A stretch of 64,000 nt of DNA. Origin: an uncultured Desulfobacteraceae bacterium (GTDB lineage: Bacteria; Desulfobacterota; Desulfobacteria; Desulfobacterales; Desulfatirhabdiaceae). A model generated the notes under the pieces. That model worked only from the letters and a program-made list of their open reading frames with translations, made no database searches and was not told where the DNA came from. The stretch covers positions 1-64,000 of the forward strand of contig CAJBLH010000238.1 in NCBI GenBank assembly GCA_903953895.1, read 5' to 3'. Position numbers and translations under genes: made by a program. Shown piece by piece: positions 12,540 to 20,715 of this stretch. Each line of letters opens with the position of its first letter. The first letter of the stretch is position 1.

Positions 12540-13541
12540 TTACAGATTCTTGTAATTGACGGCGTTCTGGACGGCAATTCCAGCTTGTTCGGCGACTGCC
12601 ATGGCAAAGTTGATATCCGCTGCTGAGAAATACCGGACCTCCGAAGTCAGCAGCCGTATCATGCCGATGGCCTCGTCCTGAACTGAAATGGGAACGGCCA
12701 AGACACTGCCGACGCCTTCGGCGGCGGCTTCTTTGTGATAGATCGTATGTAAATCGACAGTGGCATCGGGAATCATGACCGGTTCCCCCTTCATGATATA
12801 GTAAGTTGCCAGTTCATCGTCGAGCGGACCACGCTCCAGGTAGGATTTGCTCAGACCATAGGCGGCTTTCAGTTCAAGACGGCCCTTGGTCGATTCAATC
12901 AGCCGGATGGTACAGGCTTTCAGGTGCATGACTTCCGTCAGTCGCGTTACAATCATATCTAGAATCTGATCCAGATTCCGGGTGGAATTGATTGTTTTGC
13001 CGATATCAAAAATTGCCTTGAAATAACTGAGCTGCCGCTTCTGATCTTCATAAATTCGGGCGTTTTCGATGGCGATCCCGCATTGCTCGGCCAGCGCCGC
13101 GACAAAAGCTATCTCATGCGGTAAAAATTCCCGGGCGGTTCGGCTCAACAGCCGGAGGACACCGCTGACTTCGCCGCGAATGGGAATCGGCACCACCAGC
13201 ATGCTTTCAATCCCCTCTTGCCGTGCCTCTTCCGGGTATTGGAGGCGGGGATCATTGGCTGCATCGAAAATGGCGATCGGCGTTCCTTTCAGCGCCTTCA
13301 TCACACTGCTTTCCATATCCACTGGACCCCGCTGAAGGTAAGTGGTGCTAAGGCCGGAAGCAGCGTGCAACACCAATTTTTTCCCCTTGCTGTCCAACAG
13401 CCGGATGGTTGCCGCATCCACACCGATGACTTCCGGAATTTTCCGGGCGATAAGAGAGAAAACTTCATTCATGTCGAGCTTGGATGTGATTGCCTTTGTA
13501 ACATCTATAAACAGTTGCAGGTATGATTTTTCACGTTCCAT
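12540..13541 (-). CDS. Tandem GAF-domain protein upstream of nrfHA
   Basis: 333-residue cytoplasmic protein made of two GAF domains (about residues 15-165 and 180-330) with no kinase, helix-turn-helix or other output. Each has the GAF pattern ending in AEQ.GIA..NA. GAF domains bind small ligands or haem/Fe-S groups, so a sensor role for the nitrite-reductase operon is plausible but unproven. The frame opens at a TTG (13574); I prefer the ATG at 13541. A paralogue with the same plan sits at 19230-20276 in the PHA operon. Confidence 0.8.
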   Translation of the reverse strand: MEREKSYLQLFIDVTKAITSKLDMNEVFSLIARKIPEVIGVDAATIRLLDSKGKKLVLHAASGLSTTYLQRGPVDMESSVMKALKGTPIAIFDAANDPRLQYPEEARQEGIESMLVVPIPIRGEVSGVLRLLSRTAREFLPHEIAFVAALAEQCGIAIENARIYEDQKRQLSYFKAIFDIGKTINSTRNLDQILDMIVTRLTEVMHLKACTIRLIESTKGRLELKAAYGLSKSYLERGPLDDELATYYIMKGEPVMIPDATVDLHTIYHKEAAAEGVGSVLAVPISVQDEAIGMIRLLTSEVRYFSAADINFAMAVAEQAGIAVQNAVNYKNL

Positions 13542-13612
13542 GGAAATTGAAGCCCTCTCAGGATTAAGACGCAATCAACGCATCTTTTCAAATGATCAAT
13601 CTCGATGATCTC

Positions 13613-13735: not shown

Positions 13736-14203
13736 TCAATCCGGTTTGCTAGTATCTGTTTGGGTCTTTGTTGAAAATCCATCAAAAAAGGATTGGAATG
13801 GATTGAGATTCTTCAGGCTGTCTTGAGCGGATTTGGTTAACCCGGATCCGAGGTTGAGCCAGCTCAGAAATTGTTCATCAACCGAAAATTGATAATTCAG
13901 GTAGGACTGCACGATCTGTTGCAGATATTTTTCGAAAAAACCGCTCAGCGTGTTGTCCCCGTATTGTATCAGCAAGTGCAGCAATGATACCGGCAGCAGC
14001 GCATGATGGTTTTTAGCCTGCTCAAGAAGAATTTGGGTTAAAATGAAAGCCGTGACGTCTTCCGCGGTTTTAGCATCGGTTGCCTTTATCTGCTTGCCAT
14101 TGCGAATCATTTCCGTTACTTCGTTCAATGTAACGAATTTTTTCTGTTCTGCGTCGTAAAGCCGCCGGTTGGTATATTTTTTCAATTCAATGGTGTTTTC
14201 CAT
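13736..14203 (-). CDS. phaR: Polyhydroxyalkanoate synthesis regulator PhaR
   Basis: PHA-responsive repressor: it binds DNA near phasin genes and is titrated away by nascent PHA granules. The 155-residue product has the diagnostic N-terminal domain, KKYTNRRLYDAEQKKFVTL (residues 8-26), followed by the granule-associated region. An AGGAA lies upstream of its ATG. It is divergent from the phasin operon across a 374-base control region, the usual arrangement for phaR and its targets. Confidence 0.88.
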   Translation of the reverse strand: MENTIELKKYTNRRLYDAEQKKFVTLNEVTEMIRNGKQIKATDAKTAEDVTAFILTQILLEQAKNHHALLPVSLLHLLIQYGDNTLSGFFEKYLQQIVQSYLNYQFSVDEQFLSWLNLGSGLTKSAQDSLKNLNPFQSFFDGFSTKTQTDTSKPD

Positions 14204-14413: not shown

Positions 14414-14442
14414 TTGACATCTTCTATTCGATTATTGATAAT
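14414..14442 (+). promoter_or_regulatory. Sigma-70 promoter of the phasin operon
   Basis: TTGACA (14414-14419), a 17-base spacer and GATAAT (14437-14442), close to the ideal. Start expected near 14449, giving an untranslated leader of about 130 bases before the phasin ATG. Confidence 0.7.
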
Positions 14443-14577: not shown

Positions 14578-14841
14578 ATGGATCAAAAATTAATCGCCAA
14601 ACAGATGATTCAGTTTAATAAAACTGCGATAGACAACAGTTTCAAGGCCATGTCCATGGTATATGAACAGAATGAAAAGATCGCTGGCGTGTTCCTGGAT
14701 CAGGCCGCATGGCTTCCGGAAGAGGGAAAAAAAGCCATTAGAGATTGGATGTCCACTTATAAATCCGGTTGTGAGAATTTCAAGTCTCTTGTTGACGAAA
14801 GCTATTCAAAAGTGGACTCTTTTTTTTCCGATTCAAAATAA
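14578..14841 (+). CDS. Small phasin-like PHA granule protein
   Basis: 87-residue, largely helical protein beginning MDQKLIAKQMIQFNKTAIDNS, a pattern seen in short phasins, which coat the PHA granule surface and control granule size. The ATG at 14578 has GGAGGA just upstream. First gene after the PHA-locus promoter and opposite phaR, matching a phasin's usual place. There is no enzymatic motif. It ends with an eight-T run coding for part of the acidic tail. Confidence 0.75.
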   Translation: MDQKLIAKQMIQFNKTAIDNSFKAMSMVYEQNEKIAGVFLDQAAWLPEEGKKAIRDWMSTYKSGCENFKSLVDESYSKVDSFFSDSK

Positions 14842-15010: not shown

Positions 15011-16555
15011 ATGAATAGTCCCGGAGATAGAAATTTGGAAACACCCGATATCGGCGATTCTTTTAAGGAAGGGTTATCGGCGCTCAATAAACTGGGGTAT
15101 GCCACACAGACATTTTTATCCGGCTTGGCCCGATATACCACGGATTTTTTTGTGCCCTACCTGATTTCAACCCATTATTTCAAACAGGCGGAATCCGATA
15201 AACTTTTCAACACGACTCCCTTGGACAATCTGGAATCCTATTTAAAACTTCTTGATGTCAATGACGATTTGACGGGCAGGAGTGTTTCCAGCGCCCTGGA
15301 TGCCGTCGGCGACTATGCCCGGCAGGAAATGGGCAACTTCATTCAGGCGATGTATCAAAGCGCCTTTGCGCTCAACAATCATGACCTGAACGTTTTCGCC
15401 ACCCGGCAGGCCGAACTGATGGACCGGGTCGTTCATGTTTATCCTCAGATGATTCGGGATATTGAACCTGAATACGGATTTCATTTCGAACGCGGTATCC
15501 ATCCGCGGGTGGCGGAAACCGATCGATTTAATCTGTATCAGATCATGCCATCAGATCCCACCATAACGGTTCAAATGGATGCCAAACCGGTATGCATTCT
15601 GCCGCCTTATGTGCTGGGCGCCAACATTCTGGGATTTCTGCCCGGTGAAAACAAAAGCTATGCGCACTGTTTCGCCAATCAGGGGATACCGACCTACATC
15701 CGTATCCTCAAAGACATCAAGACCAGCGAAGCACTTCAAACCATGACCGCTGAAGACGATGCCCTGGATACCCGCATGTTTTGCGAGACCATCTTCAAGC
15801 GGCACGGCAAACCCGTTACCTTGAATGGATATTGTCAAGGCGGATTCAACGCATTGTGCAATCTGCTTTCCGGAGAACTGGATGAGTTGGTGGATGCTTT
15901 TATTACCTGTGTTGCTCCCATGGATGGAACGCGAAGCCAGGGGCTGGCAGAATTTTTGAAGCGCCTTCCCGAACGGTTCAACAATCTGGATTATGGCACC
16001 AAAGTATTGCCCAATGGCAACAAGGTGGCCGATGGAAAGCTGATGGGCTGGGTGTATAAACTAAAAAGCATCGAAACCGAACAGCCCCTGAATGCATTTT
16101 TCCGCGATATCAGCATGTTGACTTCAAAAAACGGAAAGCCGGTCAAGATCGGCAAGACGGCTGCTGCGCTGAATTACTGGCTGAGCAACGAACGATTCGA
16201 TCTGCCGCTGGCAATCACCCGGGTCAGCTTTGCCTCTTATAATATTCCCATTACAGCGGATGGAACTCTTCCAATTCAATTGTTCGGACGAAAACTGAAC
16301 CTGAAACGAATTACGGAAAAGAAAATTCCGTGGTTGATCTGTTATGGCACCCATGATGATCTGGTGGAAAAGGAAACGGCGCTGGCCCCGCTGGATTATG
16401 TTTCCGCAGAGGTAACCCCGTTTCCCAAAGGACATGTGGCCATTGCAACATCCTGGTCCGATCCGAACTCGGCTTGTGCGCTGCATACCCGTTTTGGAGA
16501 GGGGAACTGGCGGGGTCCGGTTCGTTTTCAACTCGACCTGAACGATGCCTTATAG
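15011..16555 (+). CDS. Divergent PhaC-like alpha/beta-hydrolase
   Basis: 514-residue protein of the PHA synthase/poly(3-hydroxyalkanoate) hydrolase fold. It has a lipase-box-like GYCQGG with Cys275 as likely nucleophile, an aspartate in GTHDD (449/450) and a histidine in KGHVAIATSW (His475), giving the Cys-Asp-His triad of PHA synthases and of some intracellular depolymerases. About 190 N-terminal residues precede the catalytic core. It is clearly different from the class III PhaC at 18025. Polymerase, depolymerase or a regulatory paralogue are all possible. It lies between the phasin gene and a PhaE-like gene. Confidence 0.7.
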   Translation: MNSPGDRNLETPDIGDSFKEGLSALNKLGYATQTFLSGLARYTTDFFVPYLISTHYFKQAESDKLFNTTPLDNLESYLKLLDVNDDLTGRSVSSALDAVGDYARQEMGNFIQAMYQSAFALNNHDLNVFATRQAELMDRVVHVYPQMIRDIEPEYGFHFERGIHPRVAETDRFNLYQIMPSDPTITVQMDAKPVCILPPYVLGANILGFLPGENKSYAHCFANQGIPTYIRILKDIKTSEALQTMTAEDDALDTRMFCETIFKRHGKPVTLNGYCQGGFNALCNLLSGELDELVDAFITCVAPMDGTRSQGLAEFLKRLPERFNNLDYGTKVLPNGNKVADGKLMGWVYKLKSIETEQPLNAFFRDISMLTSKNGKPVKIGKTAAALNYWLSNERFDLPLAITRVSFASYNIPITADGTLPIQLFGRKLNLKRITEKKIPWLICYGTHDDLVEKETALAPLDYVSAEVTPFPKGHVAIATSWSDPNSACALHTRFGEGNWRGPVRFQLDLNDAL

Positions 16556-16574
16556 ATTAGCCGAAGGAAATCCT

Positions 16575-17057
16575 ATGAACAGCCAGTTTCTAGAATTTTT
16601 TGGAAATTATTTAATCCAGGCCGCCAGGTGGCAGAATCAGATTTCGCAGTTATCAGGCGGAAAAACCCCGACAGGCATGGATGTGTCGGAACTTGGCCGG
16701 CTGTTCAAACAGTTTTGCAGCATCGGCGGGCGCCAAGAATCCGAGTTTGCAGAATATGCTCGGATGTGGCAGCAGGCGGTTGAAAACTTTCAATCTGTTT
16801 TTTGTCCCTACGCCAAAATGTGGGGTTGGGTTCCCGAGGCCGATTATCAGGTCTTGCAGAAAAAATGTGACTTGCTGGAAAAAAAGATCCGGAAACAGGA
16901 TCAAATCATTTCACAGCTTCGGTCGCTGCTCGAAGAAAAAGGACTGGGTCAGGTCGAGATGCTTCAACGGTTTCAATCGTTGATCCAGGATCAAAGCGAT
17001 GAATTTCAGACTTTTATGCAGAATTTTGGAGAAGCGTTTGCAAAGGCCAAAGGCTGA
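16575..17057 (+). CDS. Short PhaE-like helical protein
   Basis: 160 residues, mostly helical, with a coiled coil at about 90-125. The segment VPEADYQVLQKKCDLLEKKI resembles the C-terminal motif of PhaE (proline, acidic residue, then a heptad ending in LEKKIR), as in the neighbouring true PhaE. I read it as a PhaE-related or phasin-like partner, perhaps for the PhaC-like protein just upstream. The ATG at 16575 has GAAGGA before it and sits 19 bases after the previous stop. Confidence 0.6.
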   Translation: MNSQFLEFFGNYLIQAARWQNQISQLSGGKTPTGMDVSELGRLFKQFCSIGGRQESEFAEYARMWQQAVENFQSVFCPYAKMWGWVPEADYQVLQKKCDLLEKKIRKQDQIISQLRSLLEEKGLGQVEMLQRFQSLIQDQSDEFQTFMQNFGEAFAKAKG

Positions 17058-17092
17058 TAACCGAATGCTCTAGTTTCATGAAGAGGTTGTCC

Positions 17093-17980
17093 ATGAATGA
17101 AAACAAACCGGATACAACTGGAATGGAAACCCTGACAGCGGACTGGATGAAGTCCGTTGCCGATTTTTGGAGTGGATTGAACCGAATGTGGCTGCAGCCT
17201 CAAGCCGGCCCGGACCCTGATTCTCAGATGAGTGCAACCCACAGTGCCAAAAACTCCATGGATACCGCCATCCGAAACTGGCAGGCTGTTTCAACGGCTA
17301 TGTCCGCTCCCGGATCCGTGGAATCGCTGCTGAAAAGCGCAGGCGCCATGCCGGAGCTATTGGCGAAAATGGCCCAGCATACGATCAGCGGATATCTGCA
17401 GCTTCAGGAAAAATGGATCGAACGTTACGGCCGAATCAGCGAAACCGTTGAAGCCTATTCATTTGAACGGGTAGACGAGAATATGTTCCGGTCCTGGATC
17501 GATATGTATGAAACCGAATTCCGGCAGTTTTACCAGATTCCCCAGTTGGGGCTGACCCGGAGCTATCAGGAAAAATTCAATCAGGTCATGGATAAATACA
17601 ATATCTATCATGCCACCCTGGCGGAATTTTTTCGGATTCTGACGCTGCCGCTCAGCCATACTGCTGCGGTCATGCAGGAGAAAGTGGGAGAGTTGGCGGA
17701 AAAGGGGGCTTTGCCCGATGATTCCCAGAAATACTATCAGATGTGGATAAAGATTCTGGAAGGGCATTACATGAAGCTGTTTCAGTCTCCCGAGTACACA
17801 CTGACACTGGCCAATACCCTGAATGCGACTTCGGATTTTACTTCTGCCAGAGATGCCGTCATTCAGGATATGATGAGTGGGTTGCCCATTCCCAGCCGCA
17901 AAGAAATCGACGAGCTGGAGCGGGAACTCTATGAGCTGAAAAAACGGATTCGAACGATTGAAAAGGGACGGCAAACCTGA
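17093..17980 (+). CDS. phaE: Class III PHA synthase subunit PhaE
   Basis: Non-catalytic activator subunit of class III PHA synthase; it pairs with PhaC and is required for polymerisation. The 295-residue product has the family pattern: Trp-rich N-terminus, a central helical region (YQMWIKILEGHYMKLFQSPE) and the C-terminal LPIPSRKEIDELERELYELK followed by a basic heptad end. AGAGG at 17082-17086 favours the ATG at 17093 over 17078. Followed by phaC. Confidence 0.88.
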   Translation: MNENKPDTTGMETLTADWMKSVADFWSGLNRMWLQPQAGPDPDSQMSATHSAKNSMDTAIRNWQAVSTAMSAPGSVESLLKSAGAMPELLAKMAQHTISGYLQLQEKWIERYGRISETVEAYSFERVDENMFRSWIDMYETEFRQFYQIPQLGLTRSYQEKFNQVMDKYNIYHATLAEFFRILTLPLSHTAAVMQEKVGELAEKGALPDDSQKYYQMWIKILEGHYMKLFQSPEYTLTLANTLNATSDFTSARDAVIQDMMSGLPIPSRKEIDELERELYELKKRIRTIEKGRQT

Positions 17981-18024
17981 TATCTTTCTGAATTATTACT
18001 GTCTGTTCACAAGGGGGTGAACCA

Positions 18025-19218
18025 ATGAGCCAGCCAACCATTCCTGTCGATCTCATTCTGTCAAAACTGGCAGAAAATGCAGAGCGGGTCCAAAGCCGCG
18101 CGCAAAAGGCATCGGAAGTTCTGCTGGAAAAAATGGATACCGATCTGGCAGCCACACCCAGTGAAGTGGTATATCAGGAAGATCGCATCAAACTGAAGCA
18201 TTACAAGCCGAGAACCAAAACCCGCAATGCAACACCCCTTCTGGTCGTGTATGCGCTGATCAACCGGGAGACCATGCTGGATCTTCAGCCTGGCCGTAGT
18301 GTGGTGGAAACCTTTATAGACAACGGCATCGATCTGTACATGATAGAGTGGGGATATCCGACCCGCAAAGACCGCTTTCTCGGGTTTGATGATCACATCA
18401 ATGTCTATATGGACAATGTCATCAATTTTATCCGTCAGCGCAACGGTGTCGACAAGATCAACCTCATGGGCATCTGCATGGGGGGTACCTTCTGTGTCAT
18501 CTATTCCGCGCTTTATCCGGAAAAGATCAAAAACCTGATCACCACCGTCACACCGTCATATTTCGATACAGACAAGGGCTTGCTGCATGTATGGATGAAG
18601 CAAATCGATGCGGACAGGATGGTGGATATTTACGGCAATATTCCAGCGGATGTGATGAATTTTGGCTTTCTGCTGCTGAATCCGGCCCGGCTGATGATCG
18701 ATAAATATGTCGGCTTCATGGAAAATATGGACAATAAAATTTTCGTTGAAAATTTTGTCCGTATGGAAAAATGGATATTCGACAGCCCGGATTTGCCCGG
18801 AGAAGTGTTCCGACAGTTTATCAAGGATTGTTACCAGCAGAATCTGCTCGTTCAAAATCGTCTGGAAGTGGGCGATAAGCGTGTCGATCTGCGGAAAGTT
18901 ACCATGCCGCTGTTGAATATTTATGGAAAATTCGATCATCTGGTTCCTCCTGAAGCCTGTGAACCGCTGATCCGCTATGTCGGCAGTACCGATACCGAAA
19001 ATCTCTGTCTGGAGACCGGACACATCGGTATCTATGTCAGCAGCAAGTGTCAGAAGGAGTTTGCACCGAAAATTGTGTCATGGCTGAAAGATAGAGATGT
19101 AATCCCATCTCTGGCTAAAACCCGTAAACCCCCGGTCAGACATAAAACCCTGTCCACCAAATCCACTGTGACGGAAACGGCTCCAAGGCCCACCGCAAAT
19201 GCCAAAAATTCAATTTAG
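18025..19218 (+). CDS. phaC: Class III poly(3-hydroxyalkanoate) synthase subunit PhaC
   Basis: Polymerises (R)-3-hydroxyacyl-CoA into PHA granules. The 397-residue protein has the lipase-like GICMGG with nucleophile Cys151, Asp304 in YGKFDHLVPP and His333 in ETGHIGIYVS, closely matching the spacing of the studied class III enzyme of Allochromatium. The last 40 residues are a basic, Ser/Thr-rich tail beyond the core. AAGGGGG precedes the start. phaE lies immediately upstream. Confidence 0.95.
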   Translation: MSQPTIPVDLILSKLAENAERVQSRAQKASEVLLEKMDTDLAATPSEVVYQEDRIKLKHYKPRTKTRNATPLLVVYALINRETMLDLQPGRSVVETFIDNGIDLYMIEWGYPTRKDRFLGFDDHINVYMDNVINFIRQRNGVDKINLMGICMGGTFCVIYSALYPEKIKNLITTVTPSYFDTDKGLLHVWMKQIDADRMVDIYGNIPADVMNFGFLLLNPARLMIDKYVGFMENMDNKIFVENFVRMEKWIFDSPDLPGEVFRQFIKDCYQQNLLVQNRLEVGDKRVDLRKVTMPLLNIYGKFDHLVPPEACEPLIRYVGSTDTENLCLETGHIGIYVSSKCQKEFAPKIVSWLKDRDVIPSLAKTRKPPVRHKTLSTKSTVTETAPRPTANAKNSI

Positions 19219-19229
19219 GGAGATGCCTT

Positions 19230-20276
19230 ATGGCTGAAGTGAAAGATTATTTTAAAACATTTTGCAAGCTCAGTCAGGCTTTTGGGACTGCTGCAACCCA
19301 AGACGATCTGCTGGGCCTGATTGTCCAATATGCGATTAATACGATGGACGGCAAGGCCGCCTGCCTGTTTTTGACAGATGATAAGCAGGATTTCTTTGTT
19401 CCGGTGGTTCAAAAAGGACTATCCGCAAATTATCTGCATGCCAATCCGATGAAAGTGCAGGGCATCGTCCAGTCATTACTGAAAAAAGGATATCTCAGCT
19501 TTCGGGATGCTGTCACCGATCCGCGCCTGGAGAATCACGAAGCCAAAAAGGCGGAGGGAATCGCCTCCATTCTGACTGTCGCCGTCATGGTACAAGGCCG
19601 AACGATCGGAGTGCTTTCATTGTATACGGCATCTCAGCGGGATTTTACCGACGATGAAATCGATTTTTTGTGTGCATTGGCTGAACAGGGAGGAATGGCC
19701 ATTGAAAAAGCCAGGCTTTTGGATCGGATTCAGAAAAATGCCTCGCTTCTGCTGGAACTGACATCCAGTATGAATTCAAGCCTTGATATCAAAAACATTC
19801 TGAACAATATGACCGCCGAAGTATCCGATGCGCTGGGCATGAAGGGAGCCGATATCCGTCTGCTGGATCAGCGGAAAAATGAGATCGCCCTGGTTTCCAG
19901 CTATGGCCTCAGCGAGAATTTTTTCAGCAATCTTCAGATCAACCGCTCGGATATGACCCGTGCTGCACTGAAAGGAGATACGGTTATCATAGAAAACGTC
20001 AATGACGATATAGCCTGTCAATTCAAAGAGTTATTGAAACAGGAGAGCATTTGCGCCATGATCATGACACCGGTAAGGGCACGCAATGACGTGATTGGAA
20101 CAATGAGTCTATACAGCGATACGCCGCATCATTTTTCATCGGATGTAAAGGCGATGATTCAGGCGCTGGCCCATCAGGGCGGACTGGCGATTCAGAATGC
20201 CAGCCTGTATCTGAAGGTACAGGAAGACAAGAAAAATCTGGAGTCGGACATTTGGAGTCACCGCTCGTGGTTCTAA
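19230..20276 (+). CDS. Tandem GAF-domain protein in the PHA operon
   Basis: 348 residues in two GAF domains (about 15-165 and 180-330), no recognisable output domain. Same architecture as the protein upstream of nrfH (12540-13541), with shared phrases such as DPRLENHEAKKAEGI versus DPRLQYPEEARQEGI. It starts 11 bases after phaC and ends 19 before phaJ, so it is co-transcribed with PHA synthesis genes and may sense a metabolic or redox signal. Function unknown. Confidence 0.8.
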   Translation: MAEVKDYFKTFCKLSQAFGTAATQDDLLGLIVQYAINTMDGKAACLFLTDDKQDFFVPVVQKGLSANYLHANPMKVQGIVQSLLKKGYLSFRDAVTDPRLENHEAKKAEGIASILTVAVMVQGRTIGVLSLYTASQRDFTDDEIDFLCALAEQGGMAIEKARLLDRIQKNASLLLELTSSMNSSLDIKNILNNMTAEVSDALGMKGADIRLLDQRKNEIALVSSYGLSENFFSNLQINRSDMTRAALKGDTVIIENVNDDIACQFKELLKQESICAMIMTPVRARNDVIGTMSLYSDTPHHFSSDVKAMIQALAHQGGLAIQNASLYLKVQEDKKNLESDIWSHRSWF

Positions 20277-20295: not shown

Positions 20296-20715
20296 ATGAA
20301 GGGCAAAACCATCGACGAACTGAACGTCGGGCAGACGGCGTCGTTTACCAAAACCATATCCGAGTCGGACGTATATCTGTTTGCAGGGATTACCGGCGAT
20401 TTCAATCCGGCCCATGTCAATGAAACCTATGCTAAAAATACGGCTTTCAAGACCCGGATCGCACACGGCATGCTGTCGGCAGGTCTGATTTCAAACGTGC
20501 TGGGTAATCAGCTTCCGGGGCCCGGTACGATTTACATGCAGCAGCAACTGAATTTCCGGGCTCCGGTAACCATTGGGGATACCATCACGGCAACCGTCGA
20601 AGTGATCGAGGTCATTCGGGAAAAAAAGCGAGTACGCTTGAAAACCGTCTGCACGAATCAGGATCAGGTTGTGGTTTTGGATGGCGAGGCGTTGATAAGC
20701 CCCCCCCGGAACTAG
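20296..20715 (+). CDS. phaJ: (R)-specific enoyl-CoA hydratase (MaoC/PhaJ family)
   Basis: Hydrates trans-2-enoyl-CoA to (R)-3-hydroxyacyl-CoA, drawing beta-oxidation intermediates into PHA. The 139-residue single hot-dog domain carries the catalytic motif GDFNPAHVN with Asp35 and His40 and the downstream RIAHGML. AAAGGAG upstream of the ATG. Last gene of the rightward PHA operon; the coding end contains an eight-C run. Confidence 0.9.
   Translation: MKGKTIDELNVGQTASFTKTISESDVYLFAGITGDFNPAHVNETYAKNTAFKTRIAHGMLSAGLISNVLGNQLPGPGTIYMQQQLNFRAPVTIGDTITATVEVIEVIREKKRVRLKTVCTNQDQVVVLDGEALISPPRN

Follow-up and report, generated by a model that had tools for sequence, protein, structure and literature searches.

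The window analyzed here, a stretch of 64,000 nucleotides from an uncultured Desulfobacteraceae bacterium, is part of a 5.47-Mb draft genome (G000, contig C238) and carries a polyhydroxyalkanoate (PHA) gene cluster in which two further genes stand directly before phaE and phaC. The first encodes a divergent PhaC-fold enzyme of 514 amino acid residues, for which the working name PhaCL is used, and the second encodes a helical protein of 160 residues. PhaCL and the small gene were found to be a conserved unit of the PHA loci of Desulfobacterota, and PhaCL, judged from its sequence, forms a lineage of its own within the PhaC/PhaZ superfamily. We favor, with confidence that is about evenly balanced, the reading that the two proteins together are a second PHA-synthase-type enzyme with two components, belonging to a class not named before. 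This reading is based on the predicted fold, the conserved catalytic triad, the gene order and the conservation in PHA loci; the polymerase chemistry of PhaCL and its physical pairing with the small protein are what we infer. In the proposed mechanism, Cys275, activated by His475 and Asp449, would take a 3-hydroxyacyl group from coenzyme A (CoA), and PhaCL would transfer it to the polymer being extended. By means of its PhaE-like segment, the small protein would keep PhaCL at the forming granule or activate it there, a role like that of PhaE toward class III PhaC.

The original prediction, made from the letters of the window, had described two PhaC/PhaE-type pairs in the order catalytic-accessory-accessory-catalytic. 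The open reading frames and their order were borne out, and the canonical class III phaE-phaC indeed follows directly after the first pair:

15011-16555, + strand: PhaCL, 514 residues, with long N-terminal helices (14-150), an alpha/beta-hydrolase domain (about 160-514) and Cys275-Asp449-His475.
16575-17057, + strand: the 160-residue helical protein, with the segment resembling the PhaE C-terminus at residues 57-115; an alternative in-frame ATG lies at 16545.
17093-17980 (or from the ATG at 17078), + strand: phaE, class III PHA synthase subunit (PF09712 84.1 bits, cut-off 25.7; TIGR01834 9e-20, 71.4 bits, under the cut-off of 154.95).
18025-19218, + strand: phaC, canonical class III PHA synthase catalytic subunit (TIGR01836 430.9 bits, cut-off 365.3).

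The description as two pairs holds in so far as one PHA operon contains two genes for PhaC-type catalytic proteins, and a small gene for a helical protein lies beside each of them. It does not hold in the sense of two class III synthases: PhaCL is of another lineage and the small protein matches no PhaE model. A deeply divergent PhaC-fold enzyme with a Cys nucleophile and its own neighbor gene is conserved in PHA loci of sulfate-reducing and syntrophic bacteria; it would be either a polymerase scaffold of a new kind, in which the surroundings of the active site differ, or the missing PHA-mobilizing or chain-modifying enzyme of these anaerobes. A description of the PhaCL family was not found in the accessible portions of the literature searched, which lay mostly outside subscription journals (PMC8312272, PMC5509742, PMC6403647 and PMC3430594 included).

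The catalytic residues were analyzed in an alignment of the window PhaCL with 54 homologues (55 rows), collected from the genomes of 57 relatives and from 41 contig loci; matches under 600 bits or under 400 residues, the window's own copy and sequences identical over residues 41-120 were dropped. Cys275, Asp449, His475, Trp390 and Trp482 were each invariant (55/55), and the nucleophile box G[YF]CQGG, in which Cys275 of the window protein lies as G-Y-C-Q-G-G, was present in all 55 rows. In the portions available of two previous reports, PhaC of any class is defined by a lipase-like box GxCxG(G) with a Cys nucleophile (PMC5509742, PMC6403647). PhaCL has such a box, and its Cys-Asp-His triad columns align with those of PhaC. 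The triad had been predicted as Cys275, Asp449/450 and His475, which was read correctly; the residue that aligns with the catalytic Asp of PhaC is Asp449, and position 450 is Asp, Asn, Glu or Thr in 51, 2, 1 and 1 of the 55 rows, respectively. The CAP Trp (Trp392 of Chromobacterium PhaC) corresponds to W390, which is also found in the PhaZ-like, X410 and DUF3141 rows and is therefore not PhaC-specific (X410 is our label for a PhaC-like family of ∼360-420 residues whose genes precede phaR in part of these loci). The CAP-helix acid (Asp395 of Chromobacterium PhaC) is kept at position 394 as Glu (44 rows) or Asp (11 rows), one residue further from the Trp; the acid column holds Asp in 18/18 class I-III rows and an acid in 0/12 PhaZ, PhaZ-like, X410 and DUF3141 rows.

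The AlphaFold2 model of PhaCL (predicted local distance difference test, pLDDT, 90.8; predicted template-modeling score, pTM, 0.88) showed long helices at residues 14-67, 70-119 and 124-150, followed by the alpha/beta-hydrolase domain. PHA synthases were the solved structures closest to this predicted model (5xav, Z 25.3, root-mean-square deviation (rmsd) 3.2 over 299). The top 7 of the 50 entries shown were PhaC, with Z from 23.9 to 25.3, so the model has a PhaC-like fold with CAP; the next structural family was gastric lipase (Z 21.1). Foldseek with the same model gave a best expectation value (E) of 2.1e-12, and a sequence search of solved structures with PhaCL returned only spurious matches (E 0.55-0.57). 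The idea that a PhaE or a phasin is fused to PhaCL as its N-terminal helices was rejected, as four accessory-protein profiles were left unmatched (E 0.08-0.17). When the window PhaCL was compared with 72,556 plasmid records, nothing was found at E<=0.01. In three genomes belonging to a single genus (G237, G260 and G283; loci L077-L079), the extended PhaCL match contained one TAA.

According to the curated models, the window PhaCL stays below every family cut-off (PF00561 16.3 bits, cut-off 25.8; TIGR01836 25.8 bits, cut-off 365.3), and the latter score means that it is not a class III PhaC by curated model. With scores so far below the PhaC models, PhaCL is probably overlooked by model-based PHA surveys. 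TIGR01836 was matched by 53/55 PhaCL members at E<=0.01 (best E 1.2e-10). The window protein had no match at E<=1 to TIGR01849 or PF06850, the PhaZ models; the sole PF06850 match in the window genome is the class III PhaC. In profile-profile comparisons, class III PhaC gave 7.2e-6 with a comparison tool and 5.6e-13 with hhalign (a set of 10 sequences including Haloferax and Rhizobium), which was the best match among six groups. It was followed by X410 (7.6e-11, 4 sequences), class I/II (6.4e-6, 8 sequences) and DUF3141 (1.2e-4, 2 sequences); the values for PhaZ-like (0.22, 4 sequences) and PhaZ (0.29, 2 sequences) are weak negatives at these set sizes. As a control, the reversed PhaCL profile gave 0.019 against class III PhaC. 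In a tree of the catalytic region (45 rows, 302 columns, class IV not included, root unknown), PhaCL formed its own clade (100/100) on a branch of 3.0 changes per column; classes I, II and III with one unassigned Azoarcus row formed a separate clade (99/95), and PhaZ, PhaZ-like, X410 and DUF3141 grouped together (93/77). The frame of PhaCL is thus PhaC-like, its features point to both sides, and it is no member of PhaC classes I-III by curated model or tree.

Several known systems resemble the PhaCL pair in part. Class III PhaEC shares with it a catalytic subunit and a separate helical gene in one operon, the Cys-Asp-His triad, the GxCxGG box, the CAP Trp and acid, and the segment resembling the PhaE C-terminus. 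PhaCL is unlike class III PhaC in its extra N-terminal helical region of ∼150 residues, in Asp-Asp rather than Asp-His and in its own clade, and the catalytic gene of the pair precedes the accessory gene, unlike in phaEC. Class I PHA synthases (5xav, 5hz2 and 9knl), which are the closest solved folds, also have an N-terminal region followed by an alpha/beta-hydrolase domain with CAP; PhaCL differs from them in its low identity (13-19% in the Foldseek rows), in having no PhaC_N (PF07167) match and in its conserved neighbor gene. Against full-length PhaC, Foldseek gave a full-length rmsd of 19-23 Å, indicating that the N-terminal region and the remainder do not superpose as a single body. X410 has the CQGG box and Asp-Asp in common with PhaCL, but it groups elsewhere in the tree and has no CAP acid. 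PhaZ (TIGR01849, two rows) also has a Cys at the nucleophile column and Asp-Asp, but neither the GxCxGG box nor the CAP Trp or acid. The class IV PhaRC of Bacillus, in the portion available of its description, has a 22 kDa small subunit with one catalytic subunit (PMC6403647); the PhaCL pair, with its 160-residue protein and one catalytic subunit, is likened to it by this description only and not by sequence. X410 itself is exemplified by L066:4404-5516 (+), with sub-cut-off scores to TIGR01836 (140.6 bits) and TIGR01849 (70.6 bits), and it also occurs upstream of phaR in L055, L062-L065, L067, L069 and L070.

For the small protein, whose helical segment had been proposed to resemble the C-terminal motif of PhaE, a family alignment of 40 sequences was used. 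Its middle part aligned to the 65 C-terminal residues of PhaE with an hhalign E of 6.1e-5 (probability 65%); the reversed control reached 2.1e-3, and none of 24 column or heptad-block shuffles did better than 7.3e-3. Haloferax PhaE scores 5.7e-5 against the same PhaE profile, so the value for the small protein is of the size expected of a remote PhaE. The proposed likeness is thus real and modest in size, and the window protein showed no match to PF09712 or TIGR01834 (PhaE) at E<=1. Predicting the structures of the single products, a check put forward with the original prediction, placed PhaCL nearest to PHA synthases. It placed the small protein nowhere: its model is predicted to be all-helical (pLDDT 79.9, pTM 0.38), and no PDB chain was matched at E<=0.001. 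Weak phasin matches at E<=0.1 (Phasin_2 in 4/40, Phasin in 4/40 and TIGR01837 in 5/40 small proteins) were scattered among many to other helical or coiled-coil families, and the class IV PhaR model was absent among the matches, no class IV sequence having been compared. Homology of the small protein to the 87-residue phasin-like family of these loci was rejected (profile comparison E 0.13). Lys/Arg-rich C-terminal tails were observed in 5/40 small proteins (L055, L056, L057, L059 and L070); such tails are reminiscent of DNA-binding phasins such as PhaF.

Conservation of the neighborhood in other Desulfobacterota, also put forward as a check, was observed. In total, 67 distinct PhaCL loci were mapped, 53 of which had flanks of at least 3 kb on the upstream side and 2.5 kb on the downstream side; Desulfopila sp. 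IMCC35006 (L041) is one of the named carriers. The loci are interrelated, they come from a search seeded with the window PhaCL, and they also supplied the sequences for the small-gene profile; the counts are therefore not independent. The small gene lay immediately 3' of PhaCL on the same strand in 38/53 loci, and a match to it was present somewhere in the stretch in 42/53. The regulator gene phaR was within 4 kb of PhaCL in 43/53 loci. A phasin-like gene was within 3 kb in 46/53, and in 44/53 it was on the same strand and at most 400 bp upstream; most related loci have one to five copies of this family near PhaCL. PhaE or class III PhaC was found in the stretch in 36/53 loci, a two-GAF protein in 33/53 and a MaoC-type hydratase in 31/53. 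Any PHA marker (phaR, phasin-like, PhaE or PhaC) was present in 47/53 loci; L110 is included solely because of a phasin-like gene on the opposite strand at a distance of 3.6 kb. That homologues of PhaCL lie mainly outside PHA loci, an outcome that would have counted against the original prediction, was rejected on these counts, with 6/53 loci markerless. A short-chain dehydrogenase/reductase (SDR) gene directly followed the small gene in 7/67 loci (L040, L043, L053, L054, L106, L145 and L147); the model that fits it best describes a subfamily of 3-ketoacyl reductases, and its scores are under all the cut-offs shown. Some of the contigs titled 'Deltaproteobacteria bacterium' were shown as Myxococcota, which is probably a matter of naming.

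The co-occurrence of PhaCL with the class III synthase was analyzed in two genome sets. Among the 57 relatives, PhaCL was found in 25 genomes and class III PhaC over the cut-off in 28; class III PhaC was present in 25/25 PhaCL genomes and PhaCL in 0/29 genomes without class III, with class III alone in G027, G033 and G037 and neither in 29. In a draw of 297 genomes from the phylum, which shares some genomes with the relatives (overlap counted by hand), 19 had PhaCL, 31 had class III over the cut-off, 14 had both and 17 had class III without PhaCL. Five genomes had PhaCL but no class III over the cut-off, namely G061 (79% complete, with a partial 71.5-bit match), G203 (81% complete, PhaCL cut at a contig end), G089 (contig ending inside the locus), G137 (with class I-type genes) and G135. 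Four of the seven genomes in the family of G135 carry PhaCL, namely G135, G347, G349 and G350. Of these, G350 has a class III PhaC and G349 has a 618-residue gene scoring like class I, the TIGR01836 search also detecting class I-type PhaC. G135 and G347 belong to one genus and are drafts of 99% and 98% completeness in 40 and 490 contigs; neither gave a TIGR01836 match at E<=0.001, a class III profile match or a PhaE, and PhaC_N was not found in G135, the one of the two searched with it. No PhaC-type protein other than PhaCL was detected in these two genomes.

The locus of G135 and G347 contains PhaCL, the small gene, the SDR reductase gene directly downstream, a thiolase gene, phaR and two phasin-like genes. 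The thiolase lies within ∼4 kb of phaR and is 76-77% identical to that of G350, which is over the TIGR01930 cut-off; the SDR is 82% identical. This gene content is as expected if PhaCL can serve as a synthase; the genus, with no PhaEC detected, is a natural test case. A broader proposal is more tentative, and we consider it somewhat less probable than even: that PhaCL and the small protein are a further independent two-subunit synthase class outside I-III, standing beside PhaEC in most sampled PHA producers among the Desulfobacterota near the window and self-sufficient in the genus of G135 and G347.

A number of observations weigh against the synthase reading. A His directly follows the catalytic Asp in 18/18 class I-III rows (His448 of Chromobacterium PhaC), and PhaCL is without it. 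In the portion available of a previous report, the CAP Asp of Chromobacterium PhaC pairs with a Lys (PMC5509742); the column of this basic partner (Lys221) holds Lys in 8/8 class I/II rows and Arg in 10/10 class III rows, and Gly203 in 55/55 PhaCL. PhaCL also lies outside the clade of PhaC classes I-III in the tree without class IV. As nearly all PhaCL carriers have PhaEC, a second synthase would be redundant in them. The case of G135 and G347 represents one lineage, and thus one event, in draft genomes, where a missed contig or another synthase would undo it. With regard to the pairing, the small protein had no match to Haloferax PhaE itself (E 0.049), and the distance-matrix test over 33 loci singled out no special link between PhaCL and the small protein. 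The correlation for this pair (r 0.70) was below those of PhaCL-PhaE (0.77) and PhaE-PhaC (0.84), and it was rejected as a proof of pairing. Finally, six loci (L051, L060, L061, L108, L112 and L114) had no PHA marker. In a quick tree of the 55 sequences, eight copies labelled by hand as orphans did not cluster but were interspersed with PHA-linked ones (5 label changes), so the loss of PHA context looks derived. Two of the orphan copies, in L060:7003-13532 and L061:6977-13067, lie away from PHA genes and have neighbors in common between the two genomes: directly before PhaCL an HDIG/HDOD-type protein is encoded, and after it a protein of ∼930 residues, which matched PAS and histidine-kinase models in L060 and was judged from its first residues only in L061.

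Alternatively, PhaCL would be an intracellular PHA depolymerase or thiolytic enzyme, in which Cys-His-Asp uses CoA or water to cut the polyester and the small protein anchors PhaCL to the granule. We regard this, the main rival reading, as less likely. It stays alive because no PhaZ (TIGR01849) over the cut-off was found in the 57 relatives, in a search where the Caulobacter control was over it, so that no mobilizing enzyme is assigned in the window genome. The strict co-occurrence with the synthase in the relatives would suit an enzyme acting on the synthase product, and Asp-Asp at the catalytic Asp is like the two PhaZ rows and unlike PhaC. However, PhaCL showed no profile similarity to PhaZ or PhaZ-like proteins (profiles of just 2 and 4 sequences), in contrast to class III PhaC, and a separate PhaZ-like gene (103-110 bits) exists in the PhaCL genomes G055, G009 and G035. 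In G135 and G347 there would be nothing to depolymerize unless an unrecognized synthase exists, and this single-genus case favors the synthase over the depolymerase. The nPHAscl depolymerase model gave sub-cut-off matches in 7/7 genomes and 13/14 controls and was over the cut-off in none, and so tells little. The PhaZ-like protein of G055, G009 and G035 has ∼470 residues; a PhaZ-like protein of this size is encoded near phaR in L032:5081-6493 (+), L057, L059 and L117, and the L032 copy scores 103 bits to TIGR01849 (cut-off 300.75) and is ∼23-24% identical to Rhizobium/Neorhizobium PhaZ. Where present, it is perhaps the local PHA depolymerase.

It is improbable, in our judgment, that PhaCL is instead a PHA-modifying acyltransferase with no polymerase activity, serving chain termination, chain transfer or end-group attachment beside PhaEC. 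Its constant company with PhaEC in the relatives, its own clade on a long branch and an intact triad in an altered neighborhood would agree with such a role; G135 and G347 would be left unexplained without another synthase, and the reading has no direct evidence. A catalytically dead scaffold that nucleates granules, as the original prediction had also considered, is very improbable: the long N-terminal helices of the model could bind a surface, but the retention of an identical Cys, Asp and His in 55/55 sequences is unexpected in a scaffold.

Returning to the window, the PhaCL pair and phaEC are accompanied by the following features:

13736-14203, - strand: phaR-type PHA accumulation regulator, divergent from the cluster (PF07879 1.5e-23; TIGR01848 1.9e-26, 92.5 bits, under the cut-off of 109.45).
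14414-14442, + strand: sigma-70-like promoter match upstream of the operon, 11/12 consensus bases, from a consensus scan only.
14578-14841, + strand: 87-residue protein called phasin-like from its size and position, with no Pfam or NCBIfam family over the cut-off.
19230-20276, + strand: two-GAF-domain protein (PF13185 1e-30), conserved near class III PhaC.
20296-20715, + strand: MaoC-type hydratase (PF01575 7.1e-24), which may supply monomers in a PhaJ-like manner.

With the starts as given, the intergenic gaps from PhaCL onward are 11-44 bases, and the genes are accordingly read as one putative operon. The 14 sigma-70-like matches in the region are at chance level (11.0 +/- 2.9 in shuffles) and are not functional evidence. 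Terminator-like matches exceeded chance (16 vs 7.5 +/- 2.7), and one of them, on the + strand at 17136-17159, falls within the beginning of phaE; some transcripts may therefore end inside the operon. The 87-residue family before PhaCL is perhaps an unmodelled phasin. Two GAF-type proteins flank the PHA cluster, at 12540-13574 (-) and 19230-20276 (+); the product of the former matches the profile of the latter with 371 bits, hinting at ligand- or redox-linked control.

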